Origin: a virus
Direction: 5' to 3' (one strand)
Length of the DNA stretch: 64,000 nt
Virus record (IMG/VR): IMGVR_UViG_3300035661_000025
Span: 32,401-96,400 of that record
Below are positions 46,977 to 54,460 of this stretch, one piece after another. Below the pieces are notes generated by a model that saw nothing but the letters and a program-made list of their open reading frames with translations, made no database searches and was not told the origin of the DNA. The position numbers were made by a program, and so were the translations under genes. Every line of letters begins with the position of its first letter. Positions within the stretch are counted from its first letter, which is position 1.

Positions 46977-48149
46977 ATGGCATTAATATTAAGAAGAGAC
47001 AAAGGTACTGTATTAACACACAATGAAGTGGATGATAATTTCGTTTATCTAGATACCACTGCTGTAAAGTTAACAGGCAGTCAAACTATAGATGGAGTTA
47101 AAACATTCACTAGTACAATTGCTGGTTCAATTACTGGTAATTCAGAAACAGTAACTAATGGTGTTTATACAATTGGAAATCAATCCATAGATGGAGTTAA
47201 AACATTCACTAGTACAATTGCTGGTTCAATTACTGGTAATTCAGAAACAGTAACTAATGGTGTTTATACAATTGGCAATCAGATTATTGCAGGAACAAAA
47301 ACATTCTCTAGTACAATTATTGGGTCAATTTCAGGTAATGCAGCTACAGTAACTGATGGAGTTTATGCTAGTACCACTCAAACTATTACAGGAGCTAAAA
47401 CATTTACTACAATTATTACTGGTAATATTTCAGGAAATGCAGCTACAGTAACAAATGGTGTTTATACAACAGGAAACCAAACTATAGCTGGTGTTAAAAC
47501 TTTTTCAGATGGTATAGTAGCAAATACAACAGGTAATGCAACAACAGTAACTGATGGAGTTTATGCTAGTACCACTCAAACTATTACAGGAGCTAAAACA
47601 TTTACTCAGATAATTACTGGGTCAATTTCAGGTAATGCTGGAACAGTTACAAATGGAGTTTATACAACAGGAAACCAAACGATAGCTGGTGTTAAAACAT
47701 TCTCTAGTACCATTACTGGGTCAATTTCAGGTAATGCTGGAACAGTAACTGATGGAGTTTATGCTAGTACCACTCAAACTATTACAGGAGCTAAAACATT
47801 CTCTAGTACAATTATAGGATCAATTTCGGGAAATGCTGGAACAGTAACTGATGGAGTTTATGCTAGTACCACTCAAACTATTACAGGAGCTAAAACATTC
47901 TCTAGTACCATTACTGGGTCAATTACTGGTAATGCTGGAACAGTTACAAATGGAGTTTATACTGTAGGAAATCAGTCAATAGCTGGTGTTAAAACATTTA
48001 TTGATGATGTTGTTATGACTCCTAGTGCATCAGTTGTTCCAGTAAATAACGGGGATATGATGTTTGAATTAACATCTGATACATCATTAACGATAAAAGT
48101 AAAAGGTTCAGATGGCGTAGTTCGTAGTACAGTTTTAACTTTAGCATAA
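46977..48149 (+). CDS. Tail fibre with 33-residue tandem repeats
   Basis: The 390-residue protein begins with the shared fibre anchor (LRRDKGTVLTHNEVDDNFVYLD) followed by about ten copies of a 33-residue unit of the form TVT(N/D)GVY...Q(T/S)I.G.KTF...I.GSI.GNA. The last ~45 residues are a different C-terminal cap. The first two copies are identical over 86 bases. The repeats form a long trimeric shaft; unit number can change by recombination. AAGGAATAAATT precedes the ATG. Confidence 0.75.
   Translation: MALILRRDKGTVLTHNEVDDNFVYLDTTAVKLTGSQTIDGVKTFTSTIAGSITGNSETVTNGVYTIGNQSIDGVKTFTSTIAGSITGNSETVTNGVYTIGNQIIAGTKTFSSTIIGSISGNAATVTDGVYASTTQTITGAKTFTTIITGNISGNAATVTNGVYTTGNQTIAGVKTFSDGIVANTTGNATTVTDGVYASTTQTITGAKTFTQIITGSISGNAGTVTNGVYTTGNQTIAGVKTFSSTITGSISGNAGTVTDGVYASTTQTITGAKTFSSTIIGSISGNAGTVTDGVYASTTQTITGAKTFSSTITGSITGNAGTVTNGVYTVGNQSIAGVKTFIDDVVMTPSASVVPVNNGDMMFELTSDTSLTIKVKGSDGVVRSTVLTLA
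47080..47996 (+). repeat. 99-base tandem repeat array inside the fibre gene
   Basis: About ten 99-base units. Copies at 47091 and 47190 are identical for 86 bases. The units alternate between a GNQ-type and an STTQ-type. Several share 50 bases or more without change. Confidence 0.8.
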
Positions 48150-50245: not shown

Positions 50246-50731
50246 ATGAGCATGATGCCTCAATTGCAAAAAATCAAATCAACCAATATAGATAGCCCCA
50301 ATAAATTTGATGTTACTATATCTAAAGGGTTATTAACCATAGAAGAAGCCCAGCTATCATTAAAATCTATAAATATACCTCAATACAATGATGAATCTAT
50401 AGAAACCTTTTTCAACAATAGATGGGTTATGACTAGAGGAAGAGCCTCTATTTTTCAAATTCAGTTAACTCTAAGAAATATAAAATCATTGTATTTGTAT
50501 CAAAGGTATCTTAAATGGATGAATGATAATGTAAATGAGTATCCTATAAAACAATATGTTGACATAGAAGTTACTTACACCGGAAATTTTAAAGGTCAAA
50601 CCCATAAAACCATTATTTTTAAAGATTGTTTAATGTCTAATTTATCAGATTTGGCATTTGACCATAGTATAACCAACAGCACATTAGATTTTTCTGTTGG
50701 TTTTAAATCTAATAGCATGATAATTAAATAA
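50246..50731 (+). CDS. Tail-tube-like baseplate protein (possible gp54-type initiator)
   Basis: The 161-residue protein resembles the tail-tube fold: ISKGLLTIEEAQLSLKSINIPQ, WVMTRGRASIFQIQLTLRN, KDCLMSNLSDLAFDHSITNSTLDFSVGFK. It may be a tube paralogue that initiates the tube at the baseplate (a role of gp54 in T4, whose protein is longer). First gene of the plus-strand baseplate operon, driven by a late box at 50198. Confidence 0.4.
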   Translation: MSMMPQLQKIKSTNIDSPNKFDVTISKGLLTIEEAQLSLKSINIPQYNDESIETFFNNRWVMTRGRASIFQIQLTLRNIKSLYLYQRYLKWMNDNVNEYPIKQYVDIEVTYTGNFKGQTHKTIIFKDCLMSNLSDLAFDHSITNSTLDFSVGFKSNSMIIK

Positions 50732-50760: not shown

Positions 50761-51435
50761 ATGTTACCTAAAATACAACCTACTTATTACGATTTTGAAA
50801 TTAATGGAAAAATTGTAGAGTTCAGAGCTTGGAAAACTAAAGACGAAAAAGAGTTTTTGATTTTACAAACAACTAAAGATGAAATTTCTGATGAAGATCT
50901 ATACAACTCATTGGTTAAGCCTTGTTTAAAAAACCCTGATATTAAATTGACTGAGGGTGAAAAACAAATGCTTATGATTGAAATAAGAAAAAAATCTTTT
51001 GGTGATAGTATAGATGTTCAATTTACATGTGGGAATTGTAAAAAATATAATGAAACTAAAATGAAACTTAGTGATATTGTAAAATATACACCTTATAGAT
51101 TTGAAAAAATCACAAAAAATGGAATATCTATTAGTTTTAGAAATGAAATTGATGTTTCTAAATTACCTAAAAATTCAGTCGCAGAATATAATTTCTCAAA
51201 ATTTGTAATGCATGTTGAAACAATTACTATAGACAATGAAGTTCATAGAGATTTTTCATTCGATGAAGCATTTTCATTTTTTGATGAGTTAGAAGCAGAG
51301 ACTTTTGATTATTTCTTTAATGAATATTCAAAGCAATTGGAAGATGTTAGCTATCATTCCGTAGAAAAATGTATGTTCTGTAAAACTGAACAAGATATTG
51401 GATTAGGTGATATCCCAAATTTATTTCCATGGTAA
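50761..51435 (+). CDS. Baseplate hub/tail assembly protein, gp26-like
   Basis: ATG at 50761 follows AAAAAAGGATATTG. The 224-residue protein has FEINGKIVEFRAWKTKDEKEFLI, CLKNPDIKLTEGEKQMLMIEIRKKSFGDSIDVQFTC, then CGNC and, at the end, CMFC...GDIPNLFPW. It follows the plan of T4-like baseplate hub proteins annotated gp26. A slippery AAATTTA at 51417-51423 near its end would allow a -1 shift into the next frame, giving a longer product. It probably chaperones the tape measure. Confidence 0.55.
   Translation: MLPKIQPTYYDFEINGKIVEFRAWKTKDEKEFLILQTTKDEISDEDLYNSLVKPCLKNPDIKLTEGEKQMLMIEIRKKSFGDSIDVQFTCGNCKKYNETKMKLSDIVKYTPYRFEKITKNGISISFRNEIDVSKLPKNSVAEYNFSKFVMHVETITIDNEVHRDFSFDEAFSFFDELEAETFDYFFNEYSKQLEDVSYHSVEKCMFCKTEQDIGLGDIPNLFPW
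51417..51423 (+). promoter_or_regulatory. Candidate -1 ribosomal frameshift site AAATTTA
   Basis: In the frame of the 50761 gene the bases read A|AAT|TTA, a canonical X-XXY-YYZ heptamer. It lies ten bases before the stop, and slipping back one base enters the frame of the 53-codon gene at 51429 without a stop. Confidence 0.55.
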
Positions 51436-51590
51436 TTACGAGTACCACGCTCAGTGACTTGTACAATTATTATAATAATATGAAATATTATGGAAACTAT
51501 ACTACATTTGAAATAGATGATATGTACCCATTTGAGCGTGAGATTTACCATGGATTATTATTTGAGACTCGAAAAATCAATAATGAATAA
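51429..51590 (+). CDS. Small tail-assembly protein / frameshift extension, 53 aa
   Basis: The 53-residue frame (MVITSTTLSDLYNYYNNMKYYGNYTTFEIDDMYPFEREIYHGLL, abbreviated here in two ideas: a Tyr-rich start and an MYPFER-type helix) overlaps the end of the gp26-like gene by seven bases. It has no ribosome site but sits in the -1 frame behind a slippery heptamer, so it is likely made as a fusion, as with lambda gpG-T. It directly precedes the tape measure. Confidence 0.5.
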   Translation: MVITSTTLSDLYNYYNNMKYYGNYTTFEIDDMYPFEREIYHGLLFETRKINNE

Positions 51591-51613: not shown

Positions 51614-54460
51614 TTGGAAAATAAAGAAAATAACGGGCTCCTTTCTAAATTAAAGGGGTTTCGCGATTCTACAGCCGAGTCTGTAGAAAAGATAGGAAAT
51701 TCAAAAGCTGTAAAAACTGTAAAAGGTACTAAAAACGTTTTAAGTTATTTGTTTACAGATAAAGGTTATGAGAAACATTCCAAAGATATTCATAAGACTT
51801 TAAAAGATACAGTTAAAAATATAGTTTTATCTGAATATCAAAAAGAGAAAAAAGATTTTGAAGAAAATTTAAAACAAACTATAGATATTTTATTAAAAGA
51901 TTTGAAAGGTGATGAAGCCGATGAAATCAAAGATAAAATAATGAAAGAAACCGTTTCAAAAATAATGAAACGAGATAAAGATGAATTGTCTAAAATAATG
52001 AAAGATAGTAAATTGATGACTGAAGAATTTACTGCTTCATTAGATGGTGCAATGAAGCCATTTGAAAAAGTTCTTTCTCCAGATCATTTTTCTGATACAA
52101 TAGATAATGCAATCAAACGTGCTTTTTTTGGAGATATTGAACAGAAAAATCAAAAAGAAAATAAAAAAGTATTTGATGAAATATCTAATAAAGTTGATAA
52201 TTTACCAGATTCAGATGAAATTAATTTATCTATAAAATCTATAGTAAAAGAAGCTGAAGGTAAATTATCAAAAAGAGTAAATAAGTTAGACACCAAGCTT
52301 ACTAAGTTATTGCTTAAATCACATAGGCCTGATTTAGATTTTGATAATGCAATGGCTGGAAAAAATCTTGGCGAAAATAAACCAGGATTATTCAAAAAAT
52401 TGGACACTAATTTAAAAACTGACCAATCTGTGAATAAAGATTCCAGTGGCGGCGGATTATTAGATATGTTTTTAGGCGGTGCCAGCGCTGTAGGTGCATG
52501 GGCTGCCATGAAAAAAATGTTAGGTATTGGCAAAACACCGGTTAATGAGTCAGTTAATCCTAAAGTTAAACCAAATTCATGGTCAACTAAATTAGGTGAT
52601 GTTGAAGCCGGATCTGATATTAAACCAGTAAATAAATTAGCTCCAGTAAAACCGTTAGCTCAGTCGGCACCTGTAAGTGACGTTAGCAGATTATCAAAAT
52701 TAACGTCTAAAATTCCTACGGGTGTTTCAAAAGGGTTAAAGGTTGCTGGAAATGTAGCTAGTAAAGTTGCAGTTCCCTTAACGGGTGCAATTGCTGGATA
52801 TGATAGATATAATCAAGTAAAAAATGATGAAACATTATCTACGGGTCAAAAAACAACTAAGGTAGCGGCAACCGCCGGAGGAGCAATGGCAGGAGCCGCT
52901 ACGGGTGCAATGGCAGGAGCCGCTATTGGAAGTGTAGTTCCTGTTTTTGGTACTGCTATTGGAGGTATTGTTGGTGGTATTGCCGGTGCATATTTAGGGC
53001 AAAAAGGTGGTGATGCTTTAGGTGATTATGCAAGCTCAAAAATGCAATCACCTAAAGCGCCAGCTGGATATATCCCACAAAAAACAGTTCCTGGTATAAA
53101 ACAAGGACCTGTTCCAGATGGTATGTTACCTCCGCCTCCTCTATTAGTAAAACAAATAGATCGTGTAGAAAACGCGGCTGATAAATTAGAAGGTCTTAGT
53201 GGAACATCTAAAGTTTCTAAAAATAACAAAACTGTTATTAAAAAACCAGTAACTATAGATCAAAAAGTAGCTAAGATAGAACAAAATACTAAAGATATTT
53301 CTAAAAACGTTAGTATATTGACTAGAAACCTTATAAAAGAGAAACAAAAAGAATCTTTAGGATTTGATACCACCACAGCTAATAAACCAGATAAATCAGT
53401 TAAAATTGAAGCTACAAATGTTGCTGATGAAGGTGATGATGATGATAATAAAGGATTTTTAGGTTCTATAACTTCAGGATATCAAAATAATGGATTATCT
53501 GGTTCAATTAAAGCAGGTGCTCAATATATTTCTAATAAAGTGTCTTCAGGTGGAGGACTTTTTGGAGGATCTAATAATGGCGGCGGTTCCGCATCTCCTG
53601 GATCATTTTTCTCAAAAGCTTGGCAAAATGCTTCTAACGCTGTAACTAATATAGGTAATTCAATCAAAGGAAAAGGTTTCAAGCTAAGTGGTGGCGTAAA
53701 TTACCAAGGAGTTAATTCTGGGGTCAAAAAGAATTTTGAAGAAATGGCTGCAGAATATAAGCAAAAAACTGGTAAAGATATTTTAATCACTTCTGGATAT
53801 AGATCTTCTGAAGAACAAGCTAGATTGTATGCTTCCAAACCAAAAGGGATGGCAGCAAAACCAGGAAGATCTATGCATGAATATGGTATGGCTATAGATA
53901 TAGATCCATCTAACGCAAATGACTTGGCTAATATGGGGTTATTATCAAAATATGGATTTGATAGACCTTACTTATATAATAGAGGTGAGACTTGGCATAT
54001 AGAACCAGTAGGTTTAAATAAAGATGCTATAATGAAAGCTGGTTATCAAAACACTCAAGCAGCAACAGCCAAAACTTCAACACCCTCAACTCAATCATCT
54101 GGAGTAAGCAAAAAACCTACAGCTACAGATATGGCTACGGATGGTGTAGATACACAAACATTAGAAGCCGATAAGGAAGAAGATTCTGTTGCAGCAGCAT
54201 TAGACAAAAAGACTTATTCATCACCAACAGTTTCTAATCCTAAAGCAGTATCAGTAGATATAAAACCATCAGATTCACCAGTTACAGTTGCTCATCAAAA
54301 TGATAAACTAGATACTACAAAAACTAAAAAAGCGGCTCCTATTGTTATAAATAATCAAAATAATAATAGTAAAAGCGAAAAAGCTCGCGACAAATCAGAA
54401 TTCGGAATGAAACATTTAGAAAGCGTTAATCCGTATATCACGGCATTAATGACTTTGTAA
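51614..54460 (+). CDS. Tail tape measure protein with M15 peptidase domain
   Basis: The 948-residue protein starts at TTG after GGAGAACTTAAA. Residues 1-250 are charged coiled coil. A Gly/Ala-rich membrane-like segment lies at about 415-470, typical of tape measures that cross the membrane. Residues about 700-800 form a D,D-/L,D-carboxypeptidase-like M15 (VanY) domain: ITSGYRSSEEQARLYASKP, GRSMHEYGMAIDID and TWHIEPVG with the zinc ligands. It sets tail length and, on injection, may cut peptidoglycan. The last ~150 residues are low-complexity. T4 gp29 is shorter and lacks the peptidase. Confidence 0.75.
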   Translation: MENKENNGLLSKLKGFRDSTAESVEKIGNSKAVKTVKGTKNVLSYLFTDKGYEKHSKDIHKTLKDTVKNIVLSEYQKEKKDFEENLKQTIDILLKDLKGDEADEIKDKIMKETVSKIMKRDKDELSKIMKDSKLMTEEFTASLDGAMKPFEKVLSPDHFSDTIDNAIKRAFFGDIEQKNQKENKKVFDEISNKVDNLPDSDEINLSIKSIVKEAEGKLSKRVNKLDTKLTKLLLKSHRPDLDFDNAMAGKNLGENKPGLFKKLDTNLKTDQSVNKDSSGGGLLDMFLGGASAVGAWAAMKKMLGIGKTPVNESVNPKVKPNSWSTKLGDVEAGSDIKPVNKLAPVKPLAQSAPVSDVSRLSKLTSKIPTGVSKGLKVAGNVASKVAVPLTGAIAGYDRYNQVKNDETLSTGQKTTKVAATAGGAMAGAATGAMAGAAIGSVVPVFGTAIGGIVGGIAGAYLGQKGGDALGDYASSKMQSPKAPAGYIPQKTVPGIKQGPVPDGMLPPPPLLVKQIDRVENAADKLEGLSGTSKVSKNNKTVIKKPVTIDQKVAKIEQNTKDISKNVSILTRNLIKEKQKESLGFDTTTANKPDKSVKIEATNVADEGDDDDNKGFLGSITSGYQNNGLSGSIKAGAQYISNKVSSGGGLFGGSNNGGGSASPGSFFSKAWQNASNAVTNIGNSIKGKGFKLSGGVNYQGVNSGVKKNFEEMAAEYKQKTGKDILITSGYRSSEEQARLYASKPKGMAAKPGRSMHEYGMAIDIDPSNANDLANMGLLSKYGFDRPYLYNRGETWHIEPVGLNKDAIMKAGYQNTQAATAKTSTPSTQSSGVSKKPTATDMATDGVDTQTLEADKEEDSVAAALDKKTYSSPTVSNPKAVSVDIKPSDSPVTVAHQNDKLDTTKTKKAAPIVINNQNNNSKSEKARDKSEFGMKHLESVNPYITALMTL

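Follow-up and report, generated by a model that had tools for sequence, protein, structure and literature searches.

A gp26-like gene and its -1 frame as a predicted frameshift locus for short and long tail assembly chaperones in a T4-like virus

In a T4-like virus, the end of a gp26-like gene overlaps a frame of 53 codons just upstream of a tape measure-like gene, which raises the question of whether the small frame is a gene of its own or the C-terminal part of a longer protein. The stretch of DNA analyzed here (the window) comprises 64,000 nt, positions 32,401-96,400 of IMG/VR record IMGVR_UViG_3300035661_000025. The original prediction was a -1 frameshift of the G/GT kind upstream of the tape measure gene, and this is supported by the layout, by conserved heptamers, and by homology of the fusion to the gp51 family. 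Comparison of the sequences indicates that the gp26-like gene and the 53-codon frame very probably constitute one programmed -1 frameshift locus of the lambda G/GT type, encoding a short (TAC-N) and a long (TAC-NC) protein. The features concerned are as follows.

50246..50731, + strand: tail tube-like protein, preceding the chaperone gene (phrog_45 tail tube, 4.8e-14)
50761..51435, + strand: gp26-like gene, short form (TAC-N), 224 aa (PF12322 T4_baseplate, 8e-29; phrog_150 "baseplate hub", 1.4e-21)
51405..51410, + strand: AGGTGA resembling a Shine-Dalgarno site, ~6 nt before the slippery heptamer; might stimulate the slip
51414..51420, + strand: second slippery heptamer C CCA AAT, overlapping A AAT TTA and 3 nt upstream of it, possible alternative slip site
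51417..51423, + strand: A AAT TTA, slippery heptamer read in frame with the gp26-like ORF and matched in relatives
51423..51590, + strand: gp51 C-terminal domain read in the -1 frame, extending the protein by a predicted 55 aa past the slip (phrog_634, 1.2e-7)
51424..51496, + strand: predicted downstream stem, 5' arm 51424-51434 (UUUCCAUGGUA), 3' arm 51486-51496 (UAUUAUGGAAA)
51614..54460, + strand: tape measure-like protein with a TTG start codon (VanY domain; phrog_23574 tail length tape measure, 4e-11)

The chaperone locus sits between the tail tube (phrog_45) and tape measure-like genes, as G/GT-type loci do. The tape measure-like gene has a strong ribosome site at its TTG start (anti-SD, -8.7 kcal/mol), and its product carries a VanY domain (D-Ala-D-Ala carboxypeptidase type) at residues 700-769. 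Elsewhere in the window, at 46977-48149, an ORF with many near-identical repeats (TITGAKTFSSTIIGSISGNAATVTDGVYAST...) was seen, which is tail fibre-like by appearance only.

The sequence AAATTTA was confirmed at 51417-51423, where the ORF at 50761-51435 reads it as A AAT TTA. The position and frame originally given for this heptamer were borne out, whereas its spacing of ten bases was not: it lies 9 nt before the TAA at 51433-51435. After a -1 slip at this site, ATT TCC is read next and then the ATG at 51429, from which the frame stays open to 51590, and the overlap between the two frames is 7 nt, both as predicted. The slip would add 55 new residues to 221 residues of the short form, giving a predicted long form of 276 aa; the ORF of 53 codons has its start within this -1 frame, at 51429. 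Because the open part of the -1 frame extends upstream no further than 51411, the slip is confined to a 22-nt stretch. The heptamer C CCA AAT also lies within this stretch, and it was found in L104, L105, L113, and L143 as well (L numbers designate the relatives used for comparison, which were drawn from viral contigs).

The -1 frame matched phrog_634, the "baseplate hub assembly catalyst" or gp51 family (1.2e-7), and the profile of its C-terminal domain matched the C-terminus of T4 gp51 and of the long gp51 of Va1. A tblastn search with the 55-aa -1 peptide gave no matches in named phages. The dN/dS values in the -1 frame, calculated for the window versus L104 and L105, were 0.07-0.09, and the -1 frame is under purifying selection. 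Readings of the small frame as a sequencing error or a pseudogene were dropped, because independent contigs share the layout and because of these dN/dS values. A related proposal sees in the small frame what is left, through decay or misassembly, of a gp51 that was once fused, and one relative (L189) does offer a precedent in that it resembles a broken long gp51. However, the proposal is contradicted by the selection test on the -1 frame, and the layout is identical in independent contigs and dozens of genomes, leaving it scarcely credible.

The small frame could also be a separate small gene, translated by termination-reinitiation from the ATG at 51429 within ATGGTAA, with no frameshift involved. 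The 7-nt overlap of this ATG with the gp26 stop is a common coupling layout, an ATG at the junction is retained by the window and its closest kin, and it is kept in L104, L105, and L148. However, this ATG has no ribosome site, as originally stated: the best anti-SD value upstream of 51429 was +0.6 kcal/mol, compared with -5.4 to -8.7 kcal/mol for five neighbouring starts. The junction ATG in the window is itself a by-product of the Pro-Trp codons CCA TGG. In addition, L108, L112, L161, L186, L190, L197, and many cyanophages lack a start codon at the junction itself, and their domain is conserved from the slip. In several relatives, the -1 frame offers its first start codon only inside the conserved domain, with the domain conserved from the slip onward, and in many cyanophages the first ATG in this frame lies only 53 or 95 nt past the gp26 stop. 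In T4- and Va1-type phages, the domain occurs solely at the C-terminal end of a long protein. The original prediction had named a protein with only a free Met start as the contrary outcome; the relatives lacking a junction start codon and the long in-frame protein of T4- and Va1-type phages speak against such a protein. These observations make a separate small gene unlikely and favor the frameshift locus.

The original prediction had also made the frameshift depend on conservation of the heptamer, and both its position and its frame are conserved in relatives. A canonical heptamer was found 7-16 nt before the gp26 stop in all frameshift-type relatives examined except the Ackermannviridae and one Vibrio relative. 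Members of the window lineage carry A AAT TTA/G/T, with T TTT TTN instead in those that do not preserve the Asn; at the same place and in the same frame as in the window, L104 carries AAATTTG, L105 carries AAATTTA, and L108, L109, L111-L113, and L143-L146 carry AAATTTT. In cyanophages, T TTT TTC lies exactly 10 nt before the gp26 stop in 80 of 80 loci, and the -1 frame is conserved. The same motif was observed in Menderavirus YB07, Schizotequatrovirus QD01 and V07, Synechococcus BUCT-ZZ01, and Prochlorococcus MED4-213, and the heptamer of the Pootjesviridae is T TTT TTG. Scans of viral contigs for Rhizobium, T4, and KVP40-like loci yielded few.

Two further observations concern individual groups. 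In L010 and other cyanophage records, the annotated gp51 begins at an internal ATG, omitting the conserved residues that lie between the slip and this ATG. In the Ackermannviridae (Salmonella phage SP1 and kin) and Vibrio phage K397 (L097, L099, and L198-L212), the gp51-like -1 frame is kept; no canonical heptamer was found in their gp26 stop regions, only ATTTTC or CTTTTC, and in the Ackermannviridae the -1 frame has its first start codon, a GTG, 32 nt past the gp26 stop.

The AT-rich genome and the conserved Pro-Asn-Leu/Phe at the end of gp26 might by themselves produce a heptamer at this place, with the slip occurring at another site (e.g., C CCA AAT) or never. In-frame X XXY YYZ sites account for 1.1% of codon pairs in the long ORFs of the window. 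Among synonymous versions of the overlap, with the same amino acids and the gene's own codon usage, the window heptamer alone has P = 0.19, and for some window kin the chance given the amino acids rises to 0.79; the codons AAT and TTA also fit an AT-rich genome. In contrast, the combined P for nine window-lineage loci, which are not fully independent, is ~4e-4 given the amino acids, and for TTT TTC, invariant across 19 non-redundant cyanophages, it is ~7e-14. Furthermore, where Phe-Phe is retained in two-gene relatives, it is encoded by TTC TTT or TTC TTC, or else the base in front of it disrupts the heptamer. Judged from these sequences, the heptamer is weak evidence from the window alone and strong evidence once relatives are compared, and a mere by-product of the gp26 end is very improbable.

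For possible stimulators of the slip at A AAT TTA, both flanks were considered. The SD-like stretch upstream of the slip gave an anti-SD value of -6.7 kcal/mol in the window. The group averages were -6.7 for cyanophages, -4.6 for window kin, and -4.6 for the others, with a background near 0, and the minimum lay 6-8 nt upstream of the slip in all three groups. These values make the SD-like stretch a candidate stimulator; part of its sequence is dictated by conserved amino acids (Glu-Gly, Gly-Asp), so that it may not be under selection of its own.

Downstream of the slip, an 11-bp stem was predicted in the window (z = -3.1; z = -2.4 on 100 nt), and z values down to -8.6 were obtained in relatives. 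In L108, L109, L111, and L112, a common 12-bp stem was observed, with all cells paired and compensatory changes at three pairs, albeit in four sequences only; sliding its arms abolishes the pairing. The register of this covarying stem is 3 nt away from that of the window stem, and it includes the gp26 stop, TAA being paired with Tyr TAT and TAG with Tyr TAC. The stem cannot be general, since no significant downstream stem was found in L104, L105, L113, L143, or L144. A downstream stem as a general stimulator was also rejected for the cyanophages, where the mean z is -0.75 and most have no stem.

On this basis, we infer that most ribosomes would stop at 51433 and release the 224-aa short form (TAC-N), whereas a fraction would slip at A AAT TTA and produce the 276-aa long form (TAC-NC) with the gp51 C-terminal domain. 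The slip would perhaps be aided by the upstream SD-like stretch and the downstream stem. By analogy with lambda G/GT, both forms may jointly coat the tape measure protein, encoded by the next gene, and recruit tail tube subunits.

The baseplate hub assembly chaperones of T4, gp26 and gp51, are homologous over their full length, gp26 corresponding to the short form and gp51 to the virtual fusion. T4-type gp51 (six phages) aligned with the virtual fusion over 241 columns (hhalign, 99.6%), T4-type gp26 aligned only with its N part, i.e., the short form, and in this comparison of T4 and Va1 types the C-domain profile detected only the long proteins. In T4, the two forms derive from two convergent genes with no slippery site, whereas the window has one gene and a predicted -1 slip. 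Two separate genes as in T4 are a trait of the T4 branch and not of the whole family; they were not found in the 96.4-kb record, in which there is one PF12322 copy and one phrog_634 place, but the record is possibly a fragment and a separate long gene may lie outside it.

The long form is also a gene of its own in Va1, L116-L119, L147, L149-L156, and L185, mostly with a short paralog just before it. In L189, the gp51-like ORF resembles the C-terminal part of the L185 long gene broken by an indel, through either sequencing error or decay. An in-frame heptamer was found in the last 60 nt of the short gene in 0 of 18 short genes from two-gene phages, a set that includes Campylobacter phage WX1, counted as two-gene though its long gene was not sought.

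In the N-domain tree, the T4-type pair (99/97) and the Va1-type pair fall in different halves, each of which also holds frameshift types, so that these sequences point to two or more origins of the two-gene state. A second gp26-like gene directly follows the frameshift gene in L143 (2740-3468), L144 (2747-3439), and L146 (ORF ending 3377). These second short copies have no heptamer or -1 extension (in L146 by ORF reading only), and the arrangement is possibly a halfway state of duplication. We somewhat favor a history in which the frameshift is ancestral and was left at least twice independently by duplication into a short copy without a slippery site and a long fused copy, with L143, L144, and L146 halfway; the lineage of the window would slip at A AAT TTN, four relatives adding the stop-containing covarying stem. 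Because the N-domain tree is unrooted, "frameshift first" is only the simpler reading.

The AlphaFold2 model of the short form had a pLDDT of 90.1. Its residues 1-82 showed a modest fold similarity to the HK97 tail assembly chaperone gp13 (2OB9, Z 4.7) and to YqbN (3KLU, Z 4.5), both below Z 8. These chaperones ranked above unrelated structures (Z 2.5 or less), with a Foldseek E of 1.7. A Foldseek search of the short form against the PDB returned nothing significant (E 0.4 or worse), and a sequence search against solved structures gave no match; against predicted viral proteins, the Foldseek matches were the gp26/gp51 family itself.

Frameshifts in lambda G/G-T and other tail assembly chaperone genes were reportedly described by Xu et al. 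in 2004, and Vladimirov, Gautam & Davidson are said to have identified gp26/gp51 in 2022 as the TAC-N/TAC-NC chaperones of T4-like phages. The slippery sequence of lambda G/G-T is unlike that of the window, and the likeness is drawn without any claim of sequence similarity. The gp26 and short "gp51" of Kyanoviridae cyanophages resemble the window in having one gene with a conserved -1 frame, with the heptamer 10 nt before the stop; their site is T TTT TTC with no consistent downstream stem, whereas that of the window is A AAT TTA. In the Vandenendeviridae/Andersonviridae (phage Adele, PMC12846349), a -1 frameshift in a myovirus chaperone gene was likewise mis-annotated as two genes, the motif being GTTTTT (PMC12846349) rather than A AAT TTA.

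In passages of the PRFect paper (PMC10885494), Vladimirov 2022 is cited for T4-like phages with one short and one long fused gene, and in passages of the Adele paper (PMC12846349) for polyT slippery sequences in T4-like TAC-N genes. As far as these passages go, the core idea, that T4-like phages have TAC-N/TAC-NC proteins, some of them made by frameshifting, is already published. The original remark that T4-like phages are not usually annotated with a frameshift is true of annotation but not of the idea. By sequence, the window lineage stands apart in its heptamer and in the covarying stem that some of its members have.

Sullivan 2010 (PMC3037559) described the gp51 of cyanophages and marine vibriophages as lacking the first ~200 residues, with no explanation in the passages found of that paper. 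The frameshift locus accounts for these "truncated" gp51 proteins, suggesting that many deposited gp51 genes of cyanophages and marine vibriophages are mis-annotated pieces of a fusion. Overall, the family offers a natural comparison of two routes to a ratio of short to long protein, frameshifting and gene duplication.
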